The notes beneath the pieces are model-generated. The model was not told the origin of the DNA. It searched no databases and was given only the letters and a program-made list of their open reading frames with translations. The position numbers and the translations under genes were made by a program. From Pyrinomonadaceae bacterium (GTDB lineage Bacteria; Acidobacteriota; Blastocatellia; Pyrinomonadales; Pyrinomonadaceae), in NCBI GenBank assembly GCA_025054715.1, contig JANWYH010000001.1, forward strand, positions 60,001-124,000: a stretch of 64,000 bases of DNA, in the 5' to 3' direction. Shown here piece by piece: positions 5,407-23,494 of the stretch (position 1 is the first letter of the stretch; every line of letters starts with the position of its first letter).

Positions 5407-6171
5407 TTATATTCCCATTATGTTGTAACCACAATCAACAAAAATAGTTTCACCCGTAATAGCTGAAGACAGATCGCTTACGAGAAAAAGGGCTGTATTG
5501 CCGACCTCACTTGCTTGAACGTTTCTTTTCAATGGAGAGCGTTCAGCAACGATTTGTTGCATCTTTCCAATATCGCCTACTCCCATTGCGGCAAGTGTCT
5601 TTATTGGTCCAGCACTTATGGCATTGACTCGGATGTTATATTTACCTAGATCGGAAGCTAGATAACGAACAGAAGCCTCAAGAGCCGCCTTTGCAACGCC
5701 CATTACGTTGTAATTTTGAACAACCTTTTCCGCACCGTAGTATGTCATTGTTACGATGCTTCCTCCATCTTTCATAAGTGGTTTTGCTGCTCTTGAGAGC
5801 TGCGTGAGTGAGTAGGTGCTGATTTCTAAAGCTGTGAGAAATGCCTCTCGGCTCGTTTGTAAAAATTCCTCGCTTAAGGCTTCACGGGGAGCGAAGGCTA
5901 TTGAGTGAATCAAAAAGTCTAGCTTTCCGTATTTCTTTTCAATTTCAGCAAAAACATTATCAACTTGTGACTGGTCGGTGACTTCACAGGGTAGAAGCAA
6001 CGATTCGGGTATGTTTGCTGTGAGCTTTTCGACCTTTTCCTTTAGCCTTTCGTTTTGGTATGTAAACGCAAGTTTCGCTCCGTGCTCAAGACATGCTTCT
6101 GCACATGCCCATGCTATTGAACGCTGGTTTGCAACTCCTACGATCAGTCCGATTTTATTTTCAAGAAGCAT
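5407..6171 (-). CDS. fabI: Enoyl-[acyl-carrier-protein] reductase (NADH), FabI
   Basis: FabI reduces trans-2-enoyl-ACP in the last step of each fatty acid elongation cycle. The divergent SDR signature is clear: an N-terminal GVANQRSIAWA nucleotide-binding loop and the catalytic Tyr-x6-Lys as Y154 and K161 in YNVMGVAK. At 254 residues it matches the family. An in-frame extension to 6213 exists, but the ATG at 6171 is chosen because it starts directly at the conserved domain and lies 4 nt after the upstream gene's stop. The FabI-type active site predicts triclosan sensitivity, although that is inference. It sits in the icd-kinase-membrane protein-fabI-LOG run. Confidence 0.95.
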   Translation of the reverse strand: MLLENKIGLIVGVANQRSIAWACAEACLEHGAKLAFTYQNERLKEKVEKLTANIPESLLLPCEVTDQSQVDNVFAEIEKKYGKLDFLIHSIAFAPREALSEEFLQTSREAFLTALEISTYSLTQLSRAAKPLMKDGGSIVTMTYYGAEKVVQNYNVMGVAKAALEASVRYLASDLGKYNIRVNAISAGPIKTLAAMGVGDIGKMQQIVAERSPLKRNVQASEVGNTALFLVSDLSSAITGETIFVDCGYNIMGI

Positions 6172-6175
6172 AAGA

Positions 6176-6937
6176 CTATTCCGTATATTTTTCTTGTAGA
6201 GCTTCAAAATCAAAAAAGCGAATGTCGGTATCTACGATTGTTGAAGAAAATTTTTCTATCAGAAACTTCTTAAGTTTATTTTCTGAATCCTTTTCAAGCT
6301 GGGTTACAATTGCAAAGAGCAATTTTATTTTATGTTTTGATCGAATCTTTTCGAAGTTTTTTCTTGCTTTTTCGATTTTTTCAAATAGCTTTTTGATTTT
6401 TTCTTCTGAGATTGAAGGAGTCACGACGAAAGTTACTTCTACAAAGGTAAGGTATTTTTTATCTAAAAAGACGGCATCAAATTGAGCTTCGCCAAAGCTG
6501 ACATGTCTTTTCAGTGGAACCCGGTTTTCTTGCTCAATTTGTCGTAAAGCGAGGTCTTCAGCCAAAACATAAGCCGCTCGCAAATTGCTCAGGTCATCTC
6601 CTGTTATTTCGAGGATCGAAGCCAGTTCATAGACTTGGTCGTTTAGTTTTTTTCGCTGTGCTTCCGGTGGCATTAATTTTACAACCTGATCAAATTTGCT
6701 GCGAACTAACTTTTCAATGTTCTGCCAAAGTATTAAGACAGCAACGGCAAAACCCAGTAGTGGCAGGAAAATGACAAGAAGAATGGCGTGTTTTTGCAGA
6801 GCAGGATCGGCGTATTTGTTTATCAAAGCGACGGAAAAAGCTATTAGGCAAAGCAAAAAGACTAAAAGCAGGAAGACAGCTATCAGCAGGCTTTTTGAGG
6901 AAAAGACAATTTGAAGAGTTTCAGTTGCTTTACTCAT
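6176..6937 (-). CDS. Membrane-anchored protein with a possible degenerate PD-(D/E)xK-like domain
   Basis: 253 residues, not recognised as a named family. Two N-terminal hydrophobic helices (about 16-40 and 50-71) precede a basic cytoplasmic domain. Within that domain, a helix containing AEDLALRQIE is followed by FDAVF (D154) and FVEVTF (E167), a spacing like the alpha-beta-beta core of PD-(D/E)xK nucleases. The catalytic Lys position holds Thr (E-V-T), so activity is doubtful. The C-terminal part (175-230) is lysine- and glutamate-rich and helical. Its start is 4 nt downstream of the PfkB-kinase stop and its stop is 4 nt before fabI, so it is embedded in that operon. The nuclease-fold idea is a by-eye inference. 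Confidence 0.55.
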   Translation of the reverse strand: MSKATETLQIVFSSKSLLIAVFLLLVFLLCLIAFSVALINKYADPALQKHAILLVIFLPLLGFAVAVLILWQNIEKLVRSKFDQVVKLMPPEAQRKKLNDQVYELASILEITGDDLSNLRAAYVLAEDLALRQIEQENRVPLKRHVSFGEAQFDAVFLDKKYLTFVEVTFVVTPSISEEKIKKLFEKIEKARKNFEKIRSKHKIKLLFAIVTQLEKDSENKLKKFLIEKFSSTIVDTDIRFFDFEALQEKYTE

Positions 6938-9803: not shown

Positions 9804-10283
9804 ATGAAAAGACTCTCAGTTATATTTTTATCTTTGTTTGTGTTTGCTTGTGCGTCTGAATCTGGGTCTGAGAAAAGTCCTGTTGAGGTTCTAAAGCAAT
9901 ATGTTGTTGCTTTTAAGAAGAGTGACACTACTGAGATGAAGAGCCTTCTTTCGAAAGAATCCTTGAAGATGGCACAAGAAGAAGCAAAAGCTCAGGGCAT
10001 GACGGTCGATGAAGTTCTATTGAGAGAGACCTTTTTTGATAAAACTCAAGACAAGGTTGAGTTCAAAAATGAGACTATTCAAGGCGAGCAAGCAACTGTA
10101 GAAATAAAGGATAAATTTGGCATCTGGCAGAGGGTTTATTTTGTTAGGGAAGATGGAAGCTGGAAGATAGCAAAAGAAAAAGGTTTTCATCAAATTCTTC
10201 ATGATGTGGAAAGGAAGATAGAAAGTTTAGAGAAAGAAATAAAAGAAAAATTTCCTTTTTCAGAATCGAATTCAAATCAATGA
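9804..10283 (+). CDS. DUF4878-like lipoprotein with an NTF2-type fold
   Basis: 159 residues from the ATG at 9804; an in-frame upstream extension is rejected because MKRLSVIFLSLFVFAC forms a classic lipoprotein signal with the lipid-modified Cys near residue 16. The mature domain opens with SPVEVLKQYVVAFKKSDTTEMKSL and has the long N-terminal helix, central hydrophobic strands and YFVREDGSWKIAKE ending typical of DUF4878 / NTF2-like periplasmic proteins. Function is unknown for the family. Its last 7 nt overlap the end of the convergent methyltransferase gene. Confidence 0.72.
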   Translation: MKRLSVIFLSLFVFACASESGSEKSPVEVLKQYVVAFKKSDTTEMKSLLSKESLKMAQEEAKAQGMTVDEVLLRETFFDKTQDKVEFKNETIQGEQATVEIKDKFGIWQRVYFVREDGSWKIAKEKGFHQILHDVERKIESLEKEIKEKFPFSESNSNQ

Positions 10284-11137
10284 ATCTTTCTGCAAAGGTT
10301 TTTTATAAGACTGCCGATACCTTCGAACCTTAAGGTTCTGTAAATCCTCATCAGAATGGATTTTTTAACAGTTGCCTCGTAAGTCATTAGTTCTTTTATG
10401 TAACGTTCTTGTTCTACAAAAAGATGCTCTAATTCTTGCTTTTTTCTTACGGCGTCAATTCTTAGCCCTAAGGTTTGGAAGAAGCTTCTTATCAAGGTGG
10501 CTTCCTCTTCAGTTGAATTAAAAAAATCTTTAAGGGCGGCAGGTATTTCTGTTCCGACAGCTACTACTCCGAGCCCGTGTCCGTGTAGAAACTCAAAATG
10601 CGGATATTTTTGTGATATTTCTCTCCATAGAGCATGAACACCAAAATCTCTTTGGCGTTCGTTAGTGTCATGTAGAAGAATTACGCCGTTTGAAGACATC
10701 TTTGGAAGCCAAGTCATAAAGTCATGTTTTACGGCTTCGTACGTATGTAGTCCGTCAATGTGAAGAAGATCAATTTCTCGATCTGCAAAATGTTTAACAG
10801 CTTCGTCAAATGTGCTTTGAATTAGGGTGGAAAAACTCGAATACAACGGATCGTGATGTTGCTTAAGTTTCAGAAAATCTTCTTCGATTAAGCTTCCTGC
10901 ATGGGCATCGCCTTTCCATGTATCTATTGCGTAACATCGAGTATTTAGTCGTAATTCCTTAACTGCTTGGCAAAAGGCACAATAAGAAACACCTTTCCAT
11001 GTTCCTAGTTCGACTATTACTTTTGGTTTCATGGCTGACACGATAAACATTGCAAATGGTATGTGTTCAGCCCATGCAGTTTCCTCGAGAAGTAGCGGAA
11101 ATTGAAGACAAACAGGGTGTTCCAATGGGTTTAGCAT
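10277..11137 (-). CDS. Class I SAM-dependent methyltransferase (Methyltransf_24-like)
   Basis: 286 residues. Motif I is VIVELGTWKGVSYC, and the acidic ribose-binding residue follows in CYAIDTWKGD. The DLLHIDGLHTYEAVKHD block with a downstream VILLHDTN is characteristic of Methyltransf_24 enzymes. These often methylate sugars, glycans or small molecules and are frequently found near cell-surface biosynthesis genes. The C-terminal 60 residues form a charged helix followed by a basic tail. It starts 5 nt after the stop of the radical SAM gene, so it is very likely co-transcribed with it. The substrate is unknown; a lipid or head-group role is only suggested by that neighbour. Confidence 0.8.
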   Translation of the reverse strand: MLNPLEHPVCLQFPLLLEETAWAEHIPFAMFIVSAMKPKVIVELGTWKGVSYCAFCQAVKELRLNTRCYAIDTWKGDAHAGSLIEEDFLKLKQHHDPLYSSFSTLIQSTFDEAVKHFADREIDLLHIDGLHTYEAVKHDFMTWLPKMSSNGVILLHDTNERQRDFGVHALWREISQKYPHFEFLHGHGLGVVAVGTEIPAALKDFFNSTEEEATLIRSFFQTLGLRIDAVRKKQELEHLFVEQERYIKELMTYEATVKKSILMRIYRTLRFEGIGSLIKNLCRKIH

Positions 11138-11142
11138 CTAGA

Positions 11143-13095
11143 TCAAACATTTACAGTTTTAGCAGATTCTTCTTCGACAAGATAAGGTGAGATAACCTTT
11201 TCACCTTCAAGGACTTTTGCAATCACAGGCAGTGTAAGTGATTTGGTTTTGCCTATTCCGGGTACTATTTTACCTTTTGCATAAATGGGATGGCGACCAT
11301 GAGTTTTATACCATTCGGCAACAGTTGCTGTTTTGTGCATATTCTCGATTATTTGCCTCCAGCCTACACCAGTGTTGTATGCACAGAAGCTAATTTCTCC
11401 TTCTTGTGTGCCGTAGGGTATTACGCACATTTCTGTTCTTCGGAAGTCGTAGGTATATAGATCTTGAAACCACATTCCTTCTATGCAAAGGACACGCCAA
11501 ACATCCTTTTCCGATAGATTCTGTTTCATCCGATCGTTTCGATCAGAGTTCGCATTTGTTGATGAAGGTTTGAATAAATTTATGATCTGAGAGATTGGGA
11601 AATCTTTCGGAGCTTTTTGCGGATCGTAGTTTCGCATTATTGCCATTGCAAGTTGCGCCATAGTTAGTTTTTTGCCTCTTGCTGTGTCGGTAATCACCGC
11701 AACGTCCTTCATGAATTGTTCATAATTGAAAAACTCAAACAAGGACTTCATTTCTCCAGTTTTCTTATTAACAACAACAAGTGTGAATATGCCGCAGTTC
11801 GGGTGGCAATTGCATGATGACCAACCCCAAGGTGCATCAGCACCTTGTAGCATATCCATTACGCTTGTGAAGGCTGAATATGAAGATAGCGGAAACCAAT
11901 CTCGCAAAGGTTGAAGATCGAGGCAATCTTTTAGTTGCTCTTTCAAATCATGTGCCATTGCTGAAAGTGTATAACGATATTTTTTGCGGTTTTCGTCCGA
12001 AATGTCTTCATCTCGACCCGTGAAGCTTACAGGTTGGAATGCGATTGTCTGAATTTTATCAATGTTTGCAGCGGCAAATCTGACTATGTCACCGATAGTG
12101 TCGTTGTTGATAGTATTTACGATTGTTGTAACGAGAGTTACCTTGATTCCAACTGATGCAAGATTTTCGATAGCTTTTAGTTTGACGTCAAAGAGATTTC
12201 CGACTCCACGGTGCTTATTCTTTTCTTCACCGATGCCATCGAATTGTAAGTAGACACCGTGCTGTCCGGCTTCTTTCGCTTTCTTGCAGAACTCGATGTC
12301 TTCGGCATAACGGATTCCATTTGTTGCCACTAGAATTCGATAAAATCCTATCTTTTTCGCATAGGAAACAGCGTCAAAAAAGTGAGGTGAAAGCGTCGGT
12401 TCTCCGCCAGAAAAGAGAATGATGATCTGGCGACGAGGTTTAAAACTAATAGCGCGATCGAGAATGGCTTTAATATCTTCAAAAGATGGCTCGTGGACAT
12501 AGCCAACCTGATTTGCATCCATGAAACAAGGATTACACATCATGTTACAGCGGTTCGTTAGATCAACTGTGAGAACAGCACCACGCCCAAATTTTATATC
12601 CGAAGTTCCATGATGATGAACATGTGCATCATCAGCTGTGCGAAAATCGCGACCGAAGAACAAAGACTCGATCCTTTTCAGGAAATTTGCATCTGTAGCT
12701 AAAATATCCTCGAAAAAACCATGTGTTGGGCAAGTTTTGCGAATGAAGATTTTACCGTCCTCTTCGACTAGTTGTGCTTTTATTTCTCCTGGATGTGAAT
12801 ACATCAGGATTTCAAGTGGAATGTCGCCCTTGATTACTCCTTCACGAACGATTTTAACGCATTTTGGACAGAGCGAGTCCGTTTCACGGGGAAAGCCTAA
12901 AGGCGGTCGAGTTCTTTCGTATGATTTTAGCAATGGTCTAGGAGCCCATTTAGGATGGATTGACTTTCCTTCTGGTAGAGCTGTATTTATCGTTTGAAAG
13001 ACTTTCCAGCTTAAATCAGCAAGTTTAGAGATTATATTAGAGCTTGTCTTTATACTTTTACCTTCTTCTCCACGCCTGAAGTTATCAATAAACAT
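11143..13095 (-). CDS. Radical SAM enzyme resembling tetraether / membrane-spanning lipid synthases (Tes/Mss type)
   Basis: 650 residues from the ATG at 13095, which has AAAGGAG 6 nt upstream; the 10-residue in-frame extension is rejected. Domain order: an N-terminal Cys-rich module with C76-x2-C79 and CPTHG (C122, H125), a radical SAM core with C183-x3-C187-x2-C190 and SGGEP (229-233), and C-terminal cysteines in GWSSCNCHPNCG and in MCVIPYGTQEGEISFCAYNTG that could hold extra Fe-S clusters. This CPxC / K-x-CPxHG / CNxxCxxC / FCAYNT plan is that of the MJ0619-like family, which includes archaeal tetraether synthase and bacterial homologues proposed to join fatty acid tails into membrane-spanning lipids. 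It lies between an SDR and a methyltransferase gene. Family placement is good; the exact reaction is inference. Confidence 0.75.
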   Translation of the reverse strand: MFIDNFRRGEEGKSIKTSSNIISKLADLSWKVFQTINTALPEGKSIHPKWAPRPLLKSYERTRPPLGFPRETDSLCPKCVKIVREGVIKGDIPLEILMYSHPGEIKAQLVEEDGKIFIRKTCPTHGFFEDILATDANFLKRIESLFFGRDFRTADDAHVHHHGTSDIKFGRGAVLTVDLTNRCNMMCNPCFMDANQVGYVHEPSFEDIKAILDRAISFKPRRQIIILFSGGEPTLSPHFFDAVSYAKKIGFYRILVATNGIRYAEDIEFCKKAKEAGQHGVYLQFDGIGEEKNKHRGVGNLFDVKLKAIENLASVGIKVTLVTTIVNTINNDTIGDIVRFAAANIDKIQTIAFQPVSFTGRDEDISDENRKKYRYTLSAMAHDLKEQLKDCLDLQPLRDWFPLSSYSAFTSVMDMLQGADAPWGWSSCNCHPNCGIFTLVVVNKKTGEMKSLFEFFNYEQFMKDVAVITDTARGKKLTMAQLAMAIMRNYDPQKAPKDFPISQIINLFKPSSTNANSDRNDRMKQNLSEKDVWRVLCIEGMWFQDLYTYDFRRTEMCVIPYGTQEGEISFCAYNTGVGWRQIIENMHKTATVAEWYKTHGRHPIYAKGKIVPGIGKTKSLTLPVIAKVLEGEKVISPYLVEEESAKTVNV

Positions 13096-13150
13096 ACTCG
13101 ACTCCTTTTCTAGAAAGAGTATCAAATTTTGGCTCAGAATTACAAGGTTA

Positions 13151-13876
13151 CTAGATAATCTGATGGCTTTCTGGCATCATTGCTATTTCCGCGACTACAC
13201 CCTCGCCGTCCTGAGTTGCAGCAAAGAAAATAGCTTTTGCGGCGTCTTCTACTTTTAACATTTTTGATCTATCGACTCGAATTGAAGTTATATTGTCCCA
13301 GAAATTTGAGTCAACACCACCGAAATACATGAGAGAAAACTTTATTCCGAATCGTTTGTATTCTTCCTTCAGACATTTTATCAACCCGGTTAATCCGTAC
13401 TTGGCAGCACAGTAAACAGAAGCCTGGGCCATAGGAGCTTTGCCTAATACACCAGGAATTACTACTACTCGACCCGATCTGTTCCTTGCCATGTGTGGCA
13501 AAACTTCTTTTAGGACTACAAAAGCGCTTCTTAAATTGTTGTCTATTGAATTTTGAAAATCTTGTAGCGTAATTTCAGAAAAAGGTTTTAAGACCCCGAT
13601 ACCCGCTGCGTGAACGAGAATATCAATCGAATTGAATCGCCGAAGGGTTTCTTCTACTAAGGTTTTAACGTCAGACTCAACCGTTGCGTCAGCTTCCATC
13701 ACAAGTACATTTGGATTACCTTTTGAGTTTAGCTTATATTCAAGCTCTGATAACTCTGCGAAATTTCTAGAGCAGATAGCTAAATTTGCTCCAGCCTCAG
13801 AGAAGAGTTCCGCAACAGCGCGCCCTATTCCGCGACCTGCACCAACTATCAAAGCCGTTGAATTTTCAAGTTTCAT
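13151..13876 (-). CDS. Short-chain dehydrogenase/reductase lacking the usual catalytic Ser
   Basis: 241 residues of the FabG-like SDR fold, with GAGRGIGRA for NAD(P) binding and the YxxxK pair in VYCAAKYG. Counting back 13 residues from that Tyr, where FabG has the catalytic Ser, there is Gly in VIPGVLGK. The NAG motif is also altered (HAAGIG). Activity may therefore be changed or lost. It lies 55 nt upstream of the radical SAM gene on the same strand, with the methyltransferase beyond, suggesting a three-gene operon. The substrate is unknown; a role in lipid or polyketide-like keto reduction is possible but only inferred from context. Confidence 0.85.
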   Translation of the reverse strand: MKLENSTALIVGAGRGIGRAVAELFSEAGANLAICSRNFAELSELEYKLNSKGNPNVLVMEADATVESDVKTLVEETLRRFNSIDILVHAAGIGVLKPFSEITLQDFQNSIDNNLRSAFVVLKEVLPHMARNRSGRVVVIPGVLGKAPMAQASVYCAAKYGLTGLIKCLKEEYKRFGIKFSLMYFGGVDSNFWDNITSIRVDRSKMLKVEDAAKAIFFAATQDGEGVVAEIAMMPESHQII

Positions 13877-13960: not shown

Positions 13961-15676
13961 TTAGATTCTAAAGCCATTCTTGTTTAGTAGAGCCTCAAAT
14001 CCTGTTTTATCAACGGCTTTCAGATAAGCATCGCGAGGTTCTACGAGTCCTTTTTTAACAAGTTCAAGTAGAGAATCATTTAGGGTTATCATTCCAATTG
14101 CTTTGCCAGTTTGCATTGCGGATGGAATTTGATAAGTTTTTCCTTCTCTGATCAGGTTTGAAATTGCGTGAGTAACGATTAAAATCTCGAAAGCTGCAAC
14201 TCTACCACCACCTTTTTTCGGCAAGAGAGTCTGAGCTATGACAGCTTTTAGAGATTCTGAAAGCATGACACGTATTTGTTGTTGTCGATCGGACGGGAAT
14301 TGGTCAATTATTCTATCAACAGTTGATGCGGCTGAAGATGTATGCAAAGTTCCAAAGACGAGATGTCCAGTTTCTGCTGTTTCTATGGCAATAGCAATCG
14401 TTTCAAGGTCTCGCATTTCGCCGACCAGAACTATGTCCGGGTCTTCACGCAAAGCGGCTCGCAAAGCGTCCTTAAAGCTTCTAGTGTGGCTATGAACTTC
14501 GCGCTGATTTACTAGGCAACGTTTATTTTCATGAACGAACTCTATAGGGTCCTCAATGGTAATTATGTGGTCGTCGCGGTTTTGATTGATGAAATCTACA
14601 AGTGAAGCTAAAGTCGTTGATTTACCTGATCCGGTAGGTCCAGTTACAACTACCAAACCTTTCGGTAAAAAACATAGGTCGGTTACTGCTTTTGATAAAC
14701 CAAGCTCTTCAGGAGACATTATTTTTGTCGGAATTAAGCGAAATACACCGCCTATGCCCTTTCTATCCATGAAGATGTTTGCACGAAAGCGTGCTACACC
14801 GGGAATTTCGTAAGAAAAGTCCGTATCGTTTCTTTCTGCAAATTCGTCTTTATTTTTCTGAGGCATTATTGAAAACAGCAGTTCTCGGACTTTCTCAGGG
14901 GGAAATGGTTGACTAATTCCCGGAAAAGGCATCATCTTACCGTCTTTACGTATCATTGGAATTACTGAAGACGATAAATGAAGGTCAGATGCGCCTAATT
15001 CCTTCATCTGACGAAACAATGCGTCTATTTGTTCTTTCGGATTTGTAGTCTTTGTCTCATTCATTTTTTCTGTTTTAATTACGGTTTGACCTTTTAGAGA
15101 TATTTCTTCATAAGAAGAATAAATTTCTTGAGGTCTAATAGGTGGCTCATAAGTTGCAGTGTCAGAAAATCTTGTTACAAATTCTGGATCGTTTACCGAA
15201 GTAACTTCAACCTTTGGTATTTCAAGTTCCGGTTCTTTTCTGTCAAAGGTTTCGATTACAATTTCAGGATTCTGCTCTTTTTGAACAAAATTATTTGTTT
15301 TTATTACAGTTTGTTTGTTTTGGTTTTCAAAAGAAACTTGAGGTGCTGATTGAGGTATTTGCTCCTGAGTGGAATTTGAAGATGGGCGGATTAGAACGTT
15401 AAAACCTAAAGGAGATTTTCTGACGATAAAATTGAATCTGCCAAGCTTATGTGGAATTTCAAATTCAACTTCTAATTTGCTAGTAAGCTCTAATCTGACG
15501 TTTTGTGGAATCAATGGAAAAACCATTGAATTTATCTGTGCTCCAAGTAGTGGCGCATTGTCAATTTCTTTTATCCCTTCATTGCAAGAGACATAAGGCT
15601 TTTTGTTCGGTTCAAGATAAATTTCTTCTGCTTGCAAAAGAACGGCTTTTTGCAAAAGTTCGTTTAGCCTATCCAT
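13961..15676 (-). CDS. pilT: PilT-type twitching-motility ATPase with a duplicated N-terminal domain
   Basis: 571 residues. PilT hexamers at the inner membrane retract type IV pili. The C-terminal two-thirds (about 216-571) is a complete PilT: GASDLHLS, Walker A GPTGSGKS (346-353), the Asp box and Walker B in EDPDIVLVGEMRD, and a His box region GHLVFGTLHTSSA. Ahead of it lies an extra block at 1-98 that resembles the PilT N-terminal domain again (for example EFEIPHKLGRFNF aligned with SYEIPGVARFRAN), joined by a roughly 115-residue low-complexity linker. PilT is normally about 350 residues. The ATG at 15676 is preferred over an upstream TTG because AGGAT precedes it. Confidence 0.88.
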   Translation of the reverse strand: MDRLNELLQKAVLLQAEEIYLEPNKKPYVSCNEGIKEIDNAPLLGAQINSMVFPLIPQNVRLELTSKLEVEFEIPHKLGRFNFIVRKSPLGFNVLIRPSSNSTQEQIPQSAPQVSFENQNKQTVIKTNNFVQKEQNPEIVIETFDRKEPELEIPKVEVTSVNDPEFVTRFSDTATYEPPIRPQEIYSSYEEISLKGQTVIKTEKMNETKTTNPKEQIDALFRQMKELGASDLHLSSSVIPMIRKDGKMMPFPGISQPFPPEKVRELLFSIMPQKNKDEFAERNDTDFSYEIPGVARFRANIFMDRKGIGGVFRLIPTKIMSPEELGLSKAVTDLCFLPKGLVVVTGPTGSGKSTTLASLVDFINQNRDDHIITIEDPIEFVHENKRCLVNQREVHSHTRSFKDALRAALREDPDIVLVGEMRDLETIAIAIETAETGHLVFGTLHTSSAASTVDRIIDQFPSDRQQQIRVMLSESLKAVIAQTLLPKKGGGRVAAFEILIVTHAISNLIREGKTYQIPSAMQTGKAIGMITLNDSLLELVKKGLVEPRDAYLKAVDKTGFEALLNKNGFRI

Positions 15677-15707
15677 AAGATCCTGATCTCTCAAAATCTA
15701 AAATAAC

Positions 15708-15777: not shown

Positions 15778-17217
15778 TTAACTTTTTTGTTGACGAAGTC
15801 GCTCTAAGGTTTCATTTAAGAGCCACCACACTTTTTCTAAGTGTTTTTCCTGTGTATGAAGACTTCCAATAGAGAGTCTCAGAGAAAATTTTTCACCGAT
15901 TTTCGTATGAGATATAAAAGCTTTTCCGCTGGAATTAACTTCGTTCATTAGTTTTTCATTTAGGAAGTTTAGCTCTTGTTCAGTTAGTTTTTCGTCGTAG
16001 GCTCGGAAGCAAACTAAAGCAAAATTGACAGGTGCTAGAAGTTGAAATTTTGGTGAAGCTTTGACCCAATCTGCGAAAAGTTTTGCTAAGCGACAGTCTT
16101 CACTTATGCGAGCTTGCATTCCTTTTTGACCAAAGTATCTAATTATGAACCAAAGTTTAAGGGCGCGAAAGCGTCTTCCAAGTTGGATTCCGTAATCCAT
16201 CTGATTCATTGCATTTTCATTAGTTTTCAGATATTCGGGTACTAGCGAAAAAGTGTCTTTAAGTAACTGCATGTCCTTAACGTATAGAACCGATAGATCA
16301 AAGGGTGTAAATAGCCATTTGTGAGGGTTGATTACGATTGAATCTGCATTTTCCCATCCTGCAAAGTAGTGGCGCATCTGTGGTAATATCGCTGCAGCTC
16401 CAGCGTAGGCAGCGTCTACATGTAAAAATAGATTGTTTTTCGCGCAGATTTCCGCTACAGATTTCACGTCATCAATGCTTGTTGTAGAGGTTGTTCCTAT
16501 AGTTGCGACAACGCAGAAAGGTAGAAAACCTTTTGTTTTGTCTTCTTTGATAACTTTCTCTAAAACATCAGTTTTCATTCGAAAATTTTCATCAGATTCG
16601 ATCTTAACAATGGATCTTTTTCCGAGACCTATTAGGATTGTAGCTTTATCTATGGAAGAATGTGCATGCTCAGAGCAATATAATCTAAGAAGTGGCAGGG
16701 TTCTTCCGCTCATCCCTTCTTCCTTTGTGTCGGGTAAGATTCTATGCCTAGCCATTGCTATAGCGTGAAGACTTGACACGGATGCTGTATCGTAAATAAT
16801 TCCGTTGAAGCTTTCAGGAAGCCCTAGCATTTTTCTAAGCCATGAAAGCGTTACCTGTTCAAGTTCGGTCGAGGCAGGAGCAGTTCGCCAAAGCATAGCC
16901 TTCATGTCGAAGGCGGCTGATAGCATTTCGCCAAAAATTCCTACAGCAGAGGATGAGGTTGAAAAAAGACCATGAAAATTTGGGTGATTCCAATGGGTTA
17001 CTGCAGGAAGAATAAATTTTTCAAAGTCGGAGAAAATTTTATTGAAATCTTCTCCTTCTTCTGGTGCTGATTGAGGAAGAGAATCTTTTAATTGGCCAGG
17101 CTTATTTTGCGATAAGACTGGAAATTGCTCGATTTTTTCAAGGTAATCTGCTATCCAATCAATTATTTTATAGCCATGTTTTCGAAATTCTTTGCTTGGG
17201 ATGTCTCCTAAACTCAT
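15778..17217 (-). CDS. PLP-dependent group II (aromatic L-amino acid type) decarboxylase
   Basis: 479 residues, typical for aromatic-L-amino-acid or related decarboxylases. The PLP-binding Lys is K300 in NPHKWLFTPFDLS, and the HVDAAYAGAAAILP segment carries the cofactor-ring Asp. It removes CO2 from an amino acid such as Tyr, Trp, Phe or Dopa to give an amine; the exact substrate is not clear by eye. It is transcribed divergently from an APC permease 116 nt away, and two more APC permeases follow. This resembles decarboxylase-antiporter pairs used in acid resistance or amine production, though a coupling is inferred. Confidence 0.88.
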   Translation of the reverse strand: MSLGDIPSKEFRKHGYKIIDWIADYLEKIEQFPVLSQNKPGQLKDSLPQSAPEEGEDFNKIFSDFEKFILPAVTHWNHPNFHGLFSTSSSAVGIFGEMLSAAFDMKAMLWRTAPASTELEQVTLSWLRKMLGLPESFNGIIYDTASVSSLHAIAMARHRILPDTKEEGMSGRTLPLLRLYCSEHAHSSIDKATILIGLGKRSIVKIESDENFRMKTDVLEKVIKEDKTKGFLPFCVVATIGTTSTTSIDDVKSVAEICAKNNLFLHVDAAYAGAAAILPQMRHYFAGWENADSIVINPHKWLFTPFDLSVLYVKDMQLLKDTFSLVPEYLKTNENAMNQMDYGIQLGRRFRALKLWFIIRYFGQKGMQARISEDCRLAKLFADWVKASPKFQLLAPVNFALVCFRAYDEKLTEQELNFLNEKLMNEVNSSGKAFISHTKIGEKFSLRLSIGSLHTQEKHLEKVWWLLNETLERLRQQKS

Positions 17218-17333: not shown

Positions 17334-18860
17334 ATGTCAACCGAGGCAATCAAGCTTGATAAGGCTGAAAATGGATTTGTCCGCGGTTTGGGTTTGATAG
17401 ATTCGACAATGATAGTTGCCGGTTCAATGATAGGCTCGGGCATATTCATTGTTTCGGCAGATATAGCAAGACATACTGGCTCGCCGGGTGGCTTGCTGCT
17501 TACGTGGATAATAACGGGTTTGCTTACGATATTTGCGGCTTTAAGTTACGGTGAGCTTGCAGCTATGATGCCCAAAGCAGGCGGACAGTATGTTTATCTA
17601 AGAGAGAGTTACTCTCCGCTTTGGGGTTTTCTCTACGGTTGGACGCTTTTTTTGGTTATTCAAACGGGAACGATTGCAGCTGTTGCTGTTGCGTTCGCTA
17701 GATTCTTGGGCGTTTTGTTTCCTTGGATTTCAGCTGAAAATTATTTAGTATCACCGATTCATATCTCAGCAAATTATGCCATATCTTTGTCTGCTCAACA
17801 GTTAATAGCCATATTGATGATAGTTTTCTTAACCTTCATAAACACTCGTGGATTGGCTTTAGGAAAGTGGATTCAGAATGTGTTTACTTCTGCAAAAACC
17901 TTATCGTTGATTCTATTGATTTTGATAGGGATTTTTATAGGCGGAGCTGCAGGAACTTTCGCTAGAAATTGGGAAAATCTCTTTGTTGCGCATAATCCCG
18001 TCGTGATAAAGCCCGATTATTTTGAATGGTTTTTGCCAGAGGTGACTGTGACGAGCGGACTTTGGGGGGTTATTGTGGCTTATTGTGTCGCACAAGTGGG
18101 TTCACTTTTTTCTTCCGATGCTTGGAATAACATAACTTTTACGGCAGGTGAGGTAAAAAACCCCGAAAGAAACATACCTCTTTCTTTGGTATTAGGAACC
18201 GGGCTGGTGATTACACTTTACATTCTGGCAAACTTTGCTTATTTGAGTACGCTTTCAATTGATCAGATTCAAAATGCTCCAGACGATCGGGTTGGAACGG
18301 CGGCTTTGCAGGTAATCTTCGGCGATACCGGAGCCATTATAATGGCAATTGCTATTATAATTTCAACCTTCGGTTGTAACAATGGGTTAGTGCTTGCTGG
18401 AGCAAGGGTTTATTACGCTATGGCAAAAGACGGATTATTCTTTAAGGCTACTAGTAAACTAAATAATTACCATGTGCCTGCCGTTGCGCTCGTTTTGCAG
18501 GGAATCTGGACTTGTCTTTTAGTTTTACCTCGCACTATTCAAACCGACTCAAGTGGTGTAATAAAATATGGAAATCTATATAGCACCTTGCTTGACTATG
18601 TAGTTTTTGCGGTTTTGATTTTTTACATATTGACCATCACCGGACTTTTCGTGTTACGAAAGAAAAAACCTGAAGCAGAAAGGCCTTACAAAGCTTTCGG
18701 TTATCCTGTGATTCCGATTGTTTATATAATTGCAGCTGGTCTAATCTCATTTGTTTTACTGTTTTATAAGCCTAAGACGTCATTACCGGGACTGCTTATA
18801 GTTTTGACCGGAGTTCCAGTTTATTGGATATGGAAAAAATTAAATGAAAAGCAGTTGTAG
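17334..18860 (+). CDS. APC-superfamily amino acid permease
   Basis: 508 residues with about 12 hydrophobic helices. The first helix carries the APC substrate-binding signature GSMIGSGIFIVSADIAR, and the family's helix-2/3 region AGGQYVYLRESYSPLWGFLYGW follows. It imports or exchanges amino acids across the inner membrane. It is divergent from the PLP decarboxylase, which suggests that it may bring in the decarboxylase substrate or exchange it for the amine. Only a short gap follows before a new promoter, so it is probably monocistronic. Specificity cannot be read from sequence. Confidence 0.9.
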   Translation: MSTEAIKLDKAENGFVRGLGLIDSTMIVAGSMIGSGIFIVSADIARHTGSPGGLLLTWIITGLLTIFAALSYGELAAMMPKAGGQYVYLRESYSPLWGFLYGWTLFLVIQTGTIAAVAVAFARFLGVLFPWISAENYLVSPIHISANYAISLSAQQLIAILMIVFLTFINTRGLALGKWIQNVFTSAKTLSLILLILIGIFIGGAAGTFARNWENLFVAHNPVVIKPDYFEWFLPEVTVTSGLWGVIVAYCVAQVGSLFSSDAWNNITFTAGEVKNPERNIPLSLVLGTGLVITLYILANFAYLSTLSIDQIQNAPDDRVGTAALQVIFGDTGAIIMAIAIIISTFGCNNGLVLAGARVYYAMAKDGLFFKATSKLNNYHVPAVALVLQGIWTCLLVLPRTIQTDSSGVIKYGNLYSTLLDYVVFAVLIFYILTITGLFVLRKKKPEAERPYKAFGYPVIPIVYIIAAGLISFVLLFYKPKTSLPGLLIVLTGVPVYWIWKKLNEKQL

Positions 18861-18888
18861 ATTGACATCGAGTGAGAAAATTGAAAGG

Positions 18889-18917
18889 TTGACGAAACTC
18901 AAGCAAAAGTGTATGTT
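18889..18917 (+). promoter_or_regulatory. Sigma-70-type promoter of the orphan ORF / second permease
   Basis: TTGACG (18889-18894), exactly 17 nt of spacer, then TATGTT (18912-18917). The start codon of the orphan frame follows about 27 nt later, so the transcript would include the orphan frame and the permease after it. Confidence 0.65.
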
Positions 18918-18944
18918 TTTCGTATGCAAAAAAAGAAGGCTTAA

Positions 18945-19502
18945 ATGGTAACATTACAGCGTAAATTAGAGATCAAGAAAAGAGGTATTAAACTTCTGGG
19001 GAACCTAACGAAGAAAAAGGTTTCATACATTAGATATGCTTATCAGGGGCTGAGAGTGTGGAAGGAGGAGGTTGAAGTGGGGTTGGGACTAGGGGTTGAG
19101 GGGTACAAGCGTATGTCAGCGAGGGGGCGGATGGATAAGGTTTTACTGGAAAGCCTTAGCAGTGAGCCATTGACTTGGGAGTTTGTGGGGAAAGGGATGG
19201 TGGTGTTTGGAATGCAGAGGCAATGGCAATCTGCTGAGGTAGCCCTTAACTTTCCTGTTCTTGTTCTTGAGGAATTGATTGAGAGGGGTTTCTTTAAGAA
19301 GTTGAGGGATAGGGAAGTAGAAGGGTTAGTTCCTGCTGATGCAGGGGCTATGGCTGACCAAAAGCCGCCAGTCAGTTTGGGTCAGCCTGAAAGGGCGGGG
19401 TATAAATACGCTGACCTAAAGTGTGCCAGTCTCGACACTTTAGTTGATCAGGAAATAGATGTCACTTCTTGCTACGAAACCTGTAGAGAGAATAATAGCT
19501 GA
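18945..19502 (+). CDS. Orphan 185-residue ORF of unusual codon use, overlapping the next permease
   Basis: No family recognised. The frame is open for 185 codons, starts with ATG after AAGG at good distance, and follows a strong promoter. The product begins with a basic region (RKLEIKKRGIKLLGNLTKKK) and contains hydrophobic LNFPVLVLEELIERGFF (about 101-117). Composition differs from the neighbours: glycine is mostly GGG, arginine often AGG, and the coding strand is very G-rich, whereas flanking genes favour GGT/GGA. This suggests a transferred gene, or a structured RNA whose G-rich sequence happens to stay open. Its last 44 nt overlap the permease start at 19459, and its 3' part has strong alternative hairpins. 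Whether protein is made is uncertain. Confidence 0.4.
   Translation: MVTLQRKLEIKKRGIKLLGNLTKKKVSYIRYAYQGLRVWKEEVEVGLGLGVEGYKRMSARGRMDKVLLESLSSEPLTWEFVGKGMVVFGMQRQWQSAEVALNFPVLVLEELIERGFFKKLRDREVEGLVPADAGAMADQKPPVSLGQPERAGYKYADLKCASLDTLVDQEIDVTSCYETCRENNS
19352..19443 (+). promoter_or_regulatory. Attenuator-like set of alternative hairpins before the second permease
   Basis: Segment B GGTCAGCC (19380-19387) can pair with segment A GGCTGACC (19352-19359, 8 bp) or with segment C GCTGACC (19410-19416, 7 bp), but not both. Segment C abuts a perfect 9-bp stem CTAAAGTGT / ACACTTTAG (19416-19443), which ends 15 nt before the permease start, next to its CAGGAAA ribosome-binding region. A CCTGC-TGAT-GCAGG hairpin lies just upstream (19332-19345). 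This layout is typical of leaders that switch translation or transcription. Confidence 0.45.
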
Positions 19503-21411
19503 AGCTCAAGAAACGGGAGAGCACACTCTAAAGAGAGCTTTAACCGGTTTGGATTTAACCTTTCTCGGTGTGGGTGCGATCATTGGCACAGGGATATTTG
19601 TTCTAACGGGGCAAGCTGCAGCAAAGCATGCTGGTCCAGCAGTAATTGTTTCGATGATACTGGCAGGCATTGTTAGCGCTTTGGCAGCTTTCTGTTACGC
19701 AGAGTTTGCCTCGACGGTTCCGATTTCAGGATCGGCTTATGCTTACGGTTATGCTACCTTGGGCGAATTTGTCGCATGGATAATTGGTTGGGATTTGATT
19801 TTGGAATATGCCTTTGGTGCTGCCACTGTTGCGGTTGGATGGTCTGGTTATGTTGTAAGTTTCTTGCGTGATTTTGGCGTAGAGTTTCCAGTTATGTTTC
19901 GAGCTGCTCCGGGGACTGAGTTTGTTCATCTACCAGCTGCAATAGCTGCGCAGTTGAATGAAGCAAAGACGATAGCTGTCGATCCGGGCTGGAACATAGT
20001 AAACGATGCTTTGAAGGCAGAGCTTACGAAAATAGGTCATAGTATTTCGCATTTTCCGGTAGAAAAATCAGTTTTTAATCTGCCGGGATTTCTAATAGCT
20101 GTTTTCGTTACTTTGCTTCTTGTAAAGGGAATAAAAGAGTCAGCTAACTTTAACACGGCGATTGTTATTGTTAAAACTTCGGTTGTGGTGCTTTTTATTG
20201 TAGCTGGCATCGGATTCATCAATACCGAAAACTTCACCCCATTTATTCCTCCGCAAAGAGTAGATTCTTTGGGTAATCCAATTTTTGGAGCTTTCGGCTG
20301 GAGCGGTGTGTTAACAGGCGCAGCCGTTATATTCTTTGCTTACATCGGTTTTGATGCTGTTTCTACTGCAGCACAAGAGGCGAAAAATCCGCAAAGAGAC
20401 ATGCCTATTGGAATTTTAGGAAGCCTTGCTATTTGCACGGTGCTTTACGTTCTGGTGTCTTTTGTAATGGTTGGTGTTGTCAGCTATACGCAATTAAATG
20501 TTCCAGCTCCGATTGCTGAAGCCATAAACGCTGCGCGAATCCGTGCTGAAGGAACGTTTTTTGAGAGCATTCTTTCTGCAATGCCCTTCATAATCAAGCT
20601 TGGAGCAGTCGTAGGACTCAGCTCTACCATGGTTGTTATGGTGATGGGTCAGCCTCGCATCTTTTATTCTATGTCAAAGGATGGGCTTTTGCCAGAATGG
20701 GCAGCAAAAGTTCATCCAAAGTTTAGAACACCTTACGTAACGACCATAATAACTGGTGCGATTGTTGCCATAATGGCTGGGTTTGTAAGGATTGATATTT
20801 TGGGAGAACTAGTTTCCATAGGAACGCTTTTTGCCTTTGTCATAGTTTCGTTGGGTGTGATAATAATGCGTTATACGCATCCTGACGTAGAGCGTCCTTT
20901 CAAGGTTCCACTATCTCCTGCCTTCCCGATATTATCGGCACTTGCAAGTGCTTATTTAATGAACGGGCTTCCGCTCGATACATGGATGCGGCTTATTTTG
21001 TGGATGTCTGTAGGGATGGTGATTTACTTTGCTTACAGTTACAAGCATAGTCATCTTGCCTTTCTAAGTTCTGAAGAGGCGAAGGTAAAAATTCCTGAGG
21101 GCAAAGTTCCTGTTTCGCCGATTGTAGGGGTCATTTTGCTGATTGCTCTTACTTTCTGGCAATTTGCTTTTACAAATCAGCCAGCAATGCAGCGCATAGT
21201 TGAAACTTCGATTCGTTTGTTCTTGTGGTTAACTTTAGGCGTAATGGTTTACTTTTTGACTTATGGAAGGAAGCAATTGACTTCTTATGCTCGCGATCAG
21301 AGAGTAGCGCTATATGGGTTAATAGCCTCTTTAGTTAACCTTGCCGTTTGGATAGGCGTAGCCTATTGGTTTTGGGAACACTACGCAGAATTACATGGTG
21401 GCATAAGGTAA
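19459..21411 (+). CDS. APC-superfamily permease, cationic amino acid transporter (CAT) type
   Basis: 650 residues, the length of CAT-type transporters with about 14 helices. Helix 1 carries GAIIGTGIFVLTG, helix 3 EFVAWIIGWDLILEYAFG, and the helix 6/8 region AYIGFDAVSTAAQEAKNPQRDMP is the CAT-family signature. It moves amino acids, often Arg/Lys/His or other substrates in bacteria, across the inner membrane. The start ATG at 19459 lies within the end of the orphan frame. A long loop between helices 3 and 5 (about 150-205) is larger than in typical members. A strong terminator follows the stop. Confidence 0.93.
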   Translation: MSLLATKPVERIIAEAQETGEHTLKRALTGLDLTFLGVGAIIGTGIFVLTGQAAAKHAGPAVIVSMILAGIVSALAAFCYAEFASTVPISGSAYAYGYATLGEFVAWIIGWDLILEYAFGAATVAVGWSGYVVSFLRDFGVEFPVMFRAAPGTEFVHLPAAIAAQLNEAKTIAVDPGWNIVNDALKAELTKIGHSISHFPVEKSVFNLPGFLIAVFVTLLLVKGIKESANFNTAIVIVKTSVVVLFIVAGIGFINTENFTPFIPPQRVDSLGNPIFGAFGWSGVLTGAAVIFFAYIGFDAVSTAAQEAKNPQRDMPIGILGSLAICTVLYVLVSFVMVGVVSYTQLNVPAPIAEAINAARIRAEGTFFESILSAMPFIIKLGAVVGLSSTMVVMVMGQPRIFYSMSKDGLLPEWAAKVHPKFRTPYVTTIITGAIVAIMAGFVRIDILGELVSIGTLFAFVIVSLGVIIMRYTHPDVERPFKVPLSPAFPILSALASAYLMNGLPLDTWMRLILWMSVGMVIYFAYSYKHSHLAFLSSEEAKVKIPEGKVPVSPIVGVILLIALTFWQFAFTNQPAMQRIVETSIRLFLWLTLGVMVYFLTYGRKQLTSYARDQRVALYGLIASLVNLAVWIGVAYWFWEHYAELHGGIR

Positions 21412-21419
21412 AACCGCAA

Positions 21420-21450
21420 AGGGGCAACTAATGGGTTGCTCCTTTTTATT
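21420..21450 (+). terminator. Rho-independent terminator after the second permease
   Basis: An 8-bp stem GGGGCAAC / GTTGCTCC (one G-T pair) with a TAATGG loop is followed by TTTTTATTTATTTT. It separates the two CAT-type permease genes, so the third permease probably has its own promoter or is made by read-through. Confidence 0.85.
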
Positions 21451-21475
21451 TATTTTCGACTAATGGAGATAAAAA

Positions 21476-23494
21476 ATGAGTTGGGCAGGTTTGTTAAAAA
21501 CGAAGTCCATTGAGCAAATTAAGAGGGATGCAGAAAGCGGAGAGTTTGTAAGGGTGACATTGCGCCGAACGCTTGGAGTATTTGACCTTACAATGTTAGG
21601 AATAGCTGCAATTATCGGTGCAGGTATTTTTGCAATGATTGGAAACGCAGCAAGTCGAGGTGGGCCAGCGGTAGTTCTTCTTTTCATTTTTGCTGCTATT
21701 GCTTGTGCTTTCTCGGCGCTTTGTTATGCAGAGTTTGCATCTAGAATTCCTATAGCAGGCTCCGCATACACTTATGCTTATGCTTCTCTTGGCGAATTGA
21801 TAGCTTGGATTATAGGTTGGGATTTGATAGTGGAATATGCGATAGGAAACATAGCAGTTGCAATCTCTTGGAGCGATTATTTTACGGGAATGCTCAAGGG
21901 TTATGGGATAAATCTTCCGTCTTACCTTACGATGGATTATTTGAGTGCCTATCGTAGTTTTAATGAAAGTTCAGAAGCGGTCGTTGGAGCGCTAGCAAGC
22001 GGTTACACGCTCAGTGCGCTTCTTGAGATGAGTTCCGACAGTTTAACTGAAATTTCTGATAAGTTGACACCATCAGCAGTCGAAGCTTATGCCGCATGGA
22101 CTCAAGCTCCAATGATAGGAAATTTGAGATTGATAGCAGATTTGCCAGCGTTAATGATTACTGTTTTGATAACAGCACTGGTTTACATCGGTATTCGTGA
22201 GTCAAAAGTAACAGCCAATGTAATGACAGTTCTTAAGGTTGCAGTAATTTTGTTGGTAATCGTGCTGGGCGCTTTTTATGTAAATCCAGCGAATTGGTCT
22301 CCGTTTGCGCCTAATGGTTTTGCGGGCGTTATGTCTGGCGCAGCGGCAGTATTTTTCGCTTATATCGGGTTTGATGCTCTTTCGACAACGGCAGAAGAAT
22401 GCCGTAATCCACATAGAGACTTGCCACGCGGAATGATACTATCGCTTTTTATCTGCACGGTTTTGTATTGCCTTTTGGCTTTAGTCTTAACAGGAATGGT
22501 GTCGTATAAAAAACTTGCCGTTGGCGATCCGCTGGCGTTTGTTTTTGGCCCAGATGGTGCAAATCTTCCTTGGATTGCGGGAATCATTGCAGTAAGCGCG
22601 GTTATAGCAATGGCAACCGTTTTCTTAGTTTTCCAAATAGGTCAACCGCGTCTTTGGATGGCAATGAGCCGTGATGGTCTTTTGCCGCCGATATTTTCCT
22701 CAATTCACCCAAGATTTAGAACGCCGTGGTTTTCAACTATTGTTACTGGTTTAGTAGTAGCGATTCCGGCATTGTTTTTAAATTTGACCGAAGTAACGGA
22801 TTTAACGGTTATCGGGACACTTTTTGCCTTTTCAATAGTTTGTGCTGGGGTTTTGTTTAAGGACAAAGAGTTCAGCTCAGAAAAGCGCTTCGTGCCTTAC
22901 ATCAATGGTAGATATTTTGTTCCTATCATCATGCTTATTGTTTTAGGTTTGGTTTACTATTTTAACAATGAAGCTTTCTGGGCGTTTTTAACCAGAATAG
23001 AACCTAAAGAAGGGGAAACCTTATGGCAGGCTTTTTCTCATAAAATTCCAACAATCGCTTTTATCATTTTAGCTACGGTCGTAACGATTCTTTCCGTTGT
23101 GAAAAAACTTTCGTTAATACCAGTTTTAGGGCTTCTTTGCTGCACTTATCTGATGAGCGAACTTGGTTGGACAAATTGGCTTCGCTTTGCTGTTTGGCTC
23201 CTTTTAGGACTTTCGATTTACTTTGGTTATGGTTACGTGCATAGCAAGATAGGTCGCGAAGAAAACCGTCCTGAAACTGCTACTTCCTATTTGAAGCTAG
23301 CTTCTTTCGGATTTTTACTCGCTGCTTTCGGCATAGCCATTTCTGCATTCGATTTTATCAATGGACTTATAATTTACGTGTTTCCATTTCTTGATGGAAT
23401 CTTAAGGTTTATAGAAATAGGGCTAGCCTTTTTCGGTCTTTTGATGGGAATTTATGGTGCATTTTCACAAATAAAGAAACCTTCGAGTGTCTGA
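21476..23494 (+). CDS. APC-superfamily permease, CAT type (paralogue of the preceding gene)
   Basis: 672 residues and collinear with the preceding permease: GAGIFAMIGNAASRGGPAVV in helix 1, ELIAWIIGWDLIVEYAIGN in helix 3, and AYIGFDALSTTAEECRNPHRDLPRG in the CAT signature. The pair therefore looks like an old tandem duplication with considerable divergence. The loop after helix 3 (about 130-215) is again expanded but differs in sequence, suggesting different periplasmic features or specificity. The ATG at 21476 follows ATGGAGATAAAAA, with GGAG 9 nt upstream. Two extra hydrophobic C-terminal segments (about 595-665) follow the usual fold. Confidence 0.92.
   Translation: MSWAGLLKTKSIEQIKRDAESGEFVRVTLRRTLGVFDLTMLGIAAIIGAGIFAMIGNAASRGGPAVVLLFIFAAIACAFSALCYAEFASRIPIAGSAYTYAYASLGELIAWIIGWDLIVEYAIGNIAVAISWSDYFTGMLKGYGINLPSYLTMDYLSAYRSFNESSEAVVGALASGYTLSALLEMSSDSLTEISDKLTPSAVEAYAAWTQAPMIGNLRLIADLPALMITVLITALVYIGIRESKVTANVMTVLKVAVILLVIVLGAFYVNPANWSPFAPNGFAGVMSGAAAVFFAYIGFDALSTTAEECRNPHRDLPRGMILSLFICTVLYCLLALVLTGMVSYKKLAVGDPLAFVFGPDGANLPWIAGIIAVSAVIAMATVFLVFQIGQPRLWMAMSRDGLLPPIFSSIHPRFRTPWFSTIVTGLVVAIPALFLNLTEVTDLTVIGTLFAFSIVCAGVLFKDKEFSSEKRFVPYINGRYFVPIIMLIVLGLVYYFNNEAFWAFLTRIEPKEGETLWQAFSHKIPTIAFIILATVVTILSVVKKLSLIPVLGLLCCTYLMSELGWTNWLRFAVWLLLGLSIYFGYGYVHSKIGREENRPETATSYLKLASFGFLLAAFGIAISAFDFINGLIIYVFPFLDGILRFIEIGLAFFGLLMGIYGAFSQIKKPSSV

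Follow-up and report, generated by a model that had tools for sequence, protein, structure and literature searches.

Which substrate does a tetraether synthase (Tes)-like radical SAM enzyme act on in a bacterium that carries two copies of it? This question is raised by a minus-strand gene at positions 11143-13095 of the 64,000-nucleotide stretch of DNA analysed here (the window). An earlier note, made from the letters of this DNA, had read the gene as a Tes-type enzyme, had linked it to diabolic-acid-type membrane-spanning lipids, and had suggested an acidobacterial source. The source is indeed acidobacterial: it belongs to the Blastocatellia, the class of the FMO-carrying Chloracidobacterium, and to the Pyrinomonadaceae, the family of Pyrinomonas methylaliphatogenes K22. 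Its genome is 2.45 Mb in size and 99% complete, and encodes, outside the window, a second paralogue with 58% identity (G000:C19:94955-96736; L002). We term the window gene and its closest relatives type A, and the second paralogue type B. The boundaries given in the note match exactly the 650-residue frame that starts with ATG at 13095; a longer version of 660 residues, starting with TTG at 13125 (ORF 13125..11143), is possible.

Two Pfam families match the window protein, Radical_SAM at 6e-24 and Zn_ribbon_HMPTM at 8e-15. Among curated models, Tes matches best (NF045702; E 9e-98, 328 bits, residues 72-588), and the closest solved relative is the archaeal MJ0619 (PDB 7tol; E 2e-70, residues 105-599). 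Structure prediction with AlphaFold on 41 homologues gave a model of mean pLDDT 76 and pTM 0.83, and a structure search with this model returned 7tol at rank 1 (E 1e-33), with TM-scores on target of 0.84 for 7tol and 0.83 for 7tom and 32% identity to 7tol in the structural alignment. Other radical SAM structures followed far behind, at E 3e-8 and above. The window protein is therefore, as the earlier note had proposed, a radical SAM member of the Tes/MJ0619 superfamily, and it shares the Tes fold, but it is not Tes proper: NF045702, an NCBIfam equivalog, has a curated cut-off of 450 bits, below which both the window protein (328) and type B (331) fall, and the CPxxCGLC motif of Tes is absent. 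The protein might instead be a non-lipid enzyme that shares the domain plan of Tes and modifies a cofactor or peptide (TrsS, heme d1/NirJ and MoaA relatives): the TrsS and NirJ models match it too, and Zn_ribbon_HMPTM is named after a pterin methyltransferase. We regard such a role as very improbable, since the window protein scores 214 bits for TrsS (cut-off 490) and 103 for NirJ1 (cut-off 650), compared with 328 bits at full length for Tes, and since type A lies in a lipid A (lpx) gene context and type B in a Tes context, as described below.

The motifs that the note had pointed out are all present in the protein, and chance is excluded both by the Pfam, NF045702 and 7tol matches and by their conservation: the motif cysteines and histidines are kept across ~130 homologues, with few gaps and isolated exceptions. 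All coordinates that follow are on the minus strand. An N-terminal mononuclear metal site (12721..12870; PF23545), conserved in ~130/130 homologues, is formed by C76-P-K-C79 and C122-P-T-H125-G (C76-x2-C79...C122-x2-H125), equivalent to the residues of the rubredoxin-like Fe site of Tes. The radical SAM motif C183-x3-C187-x2-C190 (12526..12549; Pfam Radical_SAM) occurs in every complete homologue, and the SAM-binding motif SGGEP (residues 229-233; 12397..12411) is invariant in homologue alignment A2. The protein thus has the radical SAM CxxxCxxC, GGEP and mononuclear-site motifs of Tes. It also has the second of the two auxiliary cysteine sets of Tes (HPxC/RC/FC): C430 and C434 lie in C428-N-C430-H431-P-N-C434-G (C428-x-C430-H431-P-x-C434; 11794..11814), where C428 is an extra, clade-specific cysteine present in 131 of 132 sequences, and C557 and C571, the latter in F-C571-AYNTG, follow at 11383..11427. 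Both C557 and C571 are found in 33/33 sequences of our Tes set, and all four retained cysteines are kept across the clade of the window protein (hereafter the window clade).

The other auxiliary set is missing. In the alignment, the CxxxCxxC that directly precedes the radical SAM motif (CPxxCGLC in Tes) occurs in 33/33 Tes sequences and in 0/131 sequences of the window clade, which instead have H160-x-H162 (12610..12618; H162 in 131/131, H160 in 124/131), with the invariant H162 aligned to the second cysteine of the lost motif. The earlier note had named absence of the auxiliary-cluster cysteines as evidence against its own reading; the C-terminal set stands and the CPxxCGLC set does not, so that reading is partly undercut on its own terms. 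The Tes structure described by Lloyd and colleagues in 2022 reportedly holds three [4Fe-4S] clusters and one mononuclear iron; given the loss of CxxxCxxC, we predict two clusters and one mononuclear metal for the window protein. If in Tes the carbon-sulfur intermediate is held by this lost cluster, the chemistry may differ here. Altered chemistry is also what would be expected if the enzyme catalysed another radical reaction on lipid tails, such as a mid-chain cross-link or ring, as by Gms and GrsA, or the methylation of iso-diabolic acid at C5/C6. Gms and Grs are likewise radical SAM lipid enzymes (PMC11186832), and the C5/C6-methylated form of iso-diabolic acid is known from Acidobacteria (PMC13274423). 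Tes is the closest relative in both sequence and fold, however, and the C-terminal Tes region (C434, C557, C571) is conserved, which makes such a reaction quite unlikely.

In a 75-row tree, made by a quick method with SH-aLRT support only, the window protein falls inside a 52-row bacterial clade (SH-aLRT 100) whose stem measures 1.92 changes per column and whose neighbour is bacterial Tes. The window clade, which comprises types A, I and B, is one branch apart from Tes and not Tes itself; the deep branching order is uncertain because the outgroup branches are long. The window protein groups within type A (SH-aLRT 99; A + I 98-100), and types A and B form old, separate branches. True Tes, scoring above the cut-off, is encoded by 29 of 247 Acidobacteriota genomes, none of them in the Blastocatellia. 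Separately, a few Blastocatellia genomes of family f7 (L193, L194; G047:C20, G059:C18) encode a divergent Tes that has CPxxCGLC in full.

The window clade is widespread in Acidobacteriota. All 48 of the good-quality Blastocatellia relatives searched encode a member, and almost every one has a type B copy. The clade also occurs in 140 of 148 good Terriglobia genomes (E 1e-150), in genome G160, which we take to be Luteitalea pratensis of subdivision 6, and in a 'gp6' MAG (L136); it was found in 0/60 genomes of the class of G083, probably a Holophagae-type class. Further records come from Myxococcota (including Minicystis rosea), Gemmatimonadota, Latescibacterota, KSB1 and Calditrichota. Type A is patchier than type B: by our count it occurs in 33 of 37 Pyrinomonadaceae genomes, in some as fragments, and is absent from others, such as the 98% complete G290. 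It is also found in two Terriglobia-class families (f84, f85), two further acidobacterial families (f32, f45) and a Planctomycetota MAG (L094). P. methylaliphatogenes has both types, its type A gene (L092) having the same contig position in G331 and G022 (family f1), and Chloracidobacterium has type B only. In three Terriglobia genomes, type B and true Tes share a strand, forming a putative acidobacterial two-enzyme tail-coupling neighbourhood: type B lies directly upstream of true Tes in G284 (L187:5818-10001; G284:C7), and the two lie within ~6 kb of each other in G157 and G119 (L188, L189).

This range follows that of iso-diabolic acid, which a survey, as quoted in PMC13274423, places in acidobacterial subdivisions 1, 3, 4 and 6; Solibacter usitatus is an acidobacterium that lacks it. 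The lineage of the source is itself known for this lipid, as the note's link to diabolic-type lipids would have it: P. methylaliphatogenes contains more than 40% ether and membrane-spanning lipid (PMC4644332), and Chloracidobacterium makes iso-diabolic acid (PMC12816986). Since Chloracidobacterium does so with type B only, type A is not required for iso-diabolic acid. The note's link thus fits the lineage but suits the window gene less well than its paralogue: type B matches the published range of iso-diabolic acid better and so makes the stronger candidate for the acidobacterial tail-coupling enzyme that is still missing, whereas the context of type A points to lipid A.

Only lipid A genes recur as genuine neighbours of type A; most other recurrent-neighbour clusters appear to be antisense shadow ORFs. 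Genes for LpxA, LpxB or LpxD lie within ~8 kb of type A at 12 of the 20 loci in the genus-level set and at 17 of the 39 in the named set, and lpx genes lie near type B at 1 of 20 and 0 of 41, respectively; the genus-level and named sets overlap in lineages. Fisher tests give p = 4e-4 (genus-level) and 5e-7 (named), values that are rough because the lineages counted are phylogenetically non-independent. The sole type B match is an LpxC-like gene ~6 kb away (L244). Among the type A neighbours scanned, LpxA, LpxB and LpxD scored above their equivalog cut-offs, and an LpxC-FabZ fusion was also present. We observed three arrangements: lpxA/lpxD divergent from type A in Pyrinomonas and its relatives; lpxD immediately downstream on the same strand (L090, L093, L097); and, in the planctomycete MAG (L094:345-7935), a single-strand series of lpxD, lpxC-fabZ, an lpxA-like stretch, a sugar-dehydrogenase-like ORF, lpxB and type A. 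One type A locus also encodes, just upstream, a small membrane methyltransferase-like protein (L093:5312-5861) with weak likeness to LmtA (61 bits, cut-off 325); LmtA is the Leptospira lipid A 1-phosphate methyltransferase.

The window's own genus lacks lpx genes beside type A, both in the 64-kb window and at two further loci (the congener L205, and L078), and the lpxC of the source genome sits on another contig. Loss of the lpx neighbourhood in this lineage is the simpler reading, because Pyrinomonas, which is basal in the type A tree, has the linkage. In the window, a FabG-like SDR oxidoreductase gene (13151..13876, minus) lies upstream of type A on the same strand, and a Methyltransf_24 gene (10277..11137, minus) lies 5 bp downstream. 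We rejected an operon of type A with these two genes, as neither is conserved beside type A elsewhere: the SDR gene accompanies it only within the genus of the source (L003) and in a single further genome (L012), and the methyltransferase gene was not found flanking other type A loci. A Ger/PlsA-type ether enzyme in the source genome was likewise unsupported, with matches limited to a ~338-residue BcrAD_BadFG kinase-like protein and one sub-threshold hit. The window also encodes a FabI-like enoyl-ACP reductase of fatty-acid synthesis (5407-6213, minus), ~5 kb from type A and probably unrelated to it; a membrane-anchored 253-residue protein with no Pfam match at the threshold used (6176-6937, minus); a PilT-like T2SSE ATPase with an extra N-terminal region of ~220 residues that has no Pfam match (13961-15694, minus); and three amino-acid permease-like genes in tandem (17334-23494, plus) beside a pyridoxal-dependent decarboxylase (15778-17217, minus).

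From these data we infer a reaction, substrate and product for type A. The radical SAM cluster would generate a 5'-deoxyadenosyl radical that removes a hydrogen from an iso-methyl tail end, the retained auxiliary [4Fe-4S] cluster (C430, C434, C557, C571) would handle the substrate radical, and the methyl-branched ends of two tails, probably iso-C15, would then be joined through a carbon-carbon bond, as Tes, which forms sp3 C-C bonds at the ends of lipid tails, couples two phytanyl tails. Type A would be a second, specialised paralogue next to the widespread type B. The substrate of type B is probably a phospholipid tail; for type A, an outer-membrane acyl chain or one linked to lipid A is the likelier substrate, because lipid A genes recur beside it. 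We give an even chance to the combined proposal that the window enzyme couples two fatty-acyl tail ends and does so on an outer-membrane or lipid-A-linked substrate rather than on bulk phospholipid. A possible but doubtful alternative is that A and B both join iso-C15 phospholipid tails, as iso-diabolic acid/brGDGT synthases, with A redundant or condition-specific. A and B have the same motifs, the range of the clade tracks iso-diabolic acid, and tail coupling is the general proposal for bacterial Tes homologues (Zeng 2022; PMC8941075), made again for Solibacter (PMC10087280). The A/B split is old, however, rather than a recent duplication, lpx genes recur beside A only, and Chloracidobacterium manages without A.

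If type A does act on lipid A, it could join the acyl tail ends of lipid A with one another or with a lipid of the inner leaflet, yielding a covalent outer-membrane-spanning lipid. We consider this extension rather unlikely; if true, it would help to explain why acidobacterial iso-diabolic acid reportedly comes free only when cell material or the residue left after Bligh-Dyer extraction is hydrolysed, and not in the extraction itself (PMC13274423). Hydrolysis-only release fits binding to lipid A but does not prove it, and iso-diabolic acid tetraesters are known from Koribacter (PMC13274423).

As far as we could find, the clean loss of the auxiliary motif, the A/B split, the fit of type B to the lipid range and the lpx linkage of type A are new; a term search for literature tying Tes-type enzymes to lipid A returned none. 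Iso-diabolic acid is presumed to be the unit from which the brGDGT palaeothermometer lipids are built, and the acidobacterial enzyme for it is not yet named in the literature we found; the activity of any bacterial Tes homologue was still unconfirmed as of 2025 (PMC11868695). Type B is a sharp, testable candidate, set apart from true Tes by the missing iron-sulfur motif. The link between type A and lipid A was previously unrecognised and, if true, would add outer-membrane tail coupling to bacterial envelope biology; type A may be the source of an as yet undescribed kind of membrane-spanning lipid.

Among known systems, the bacterial membrane-spanning lipid synthase Mss (Sahonero-Canavesi 2022) resembles the window enzyme in the proposed tail-to-tail coupling; Mss models reportedly have the catalytic architecture of Tes (PMC13274423). 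The bacterial Tes homologues of Zeng 2022 come from Solibacter, Koribacter and Edaphobacter, and those with ~32% identity, such as that of E. aggregans, probably belong to the window clade. True Tes of Acidobacteriota lies in another clade than the window protein, which belongs to the lpx-linked subgroup A. With archaeal Tes/GDGT-MAS (MJ0619; 7tol/7tom), the window protein shares the domain plan, mononuclear site, radical SAM core, C-terminal auxiliary cysteines and fold. It differs in having HxH in place of CPxxCGLC, the extra C428, an additional N-terminal helical segment and a C-terminal tail, and, whereas the archaeal substrate is isoprenoid, a bacterial iso-fatty-acyl chain is expected here.
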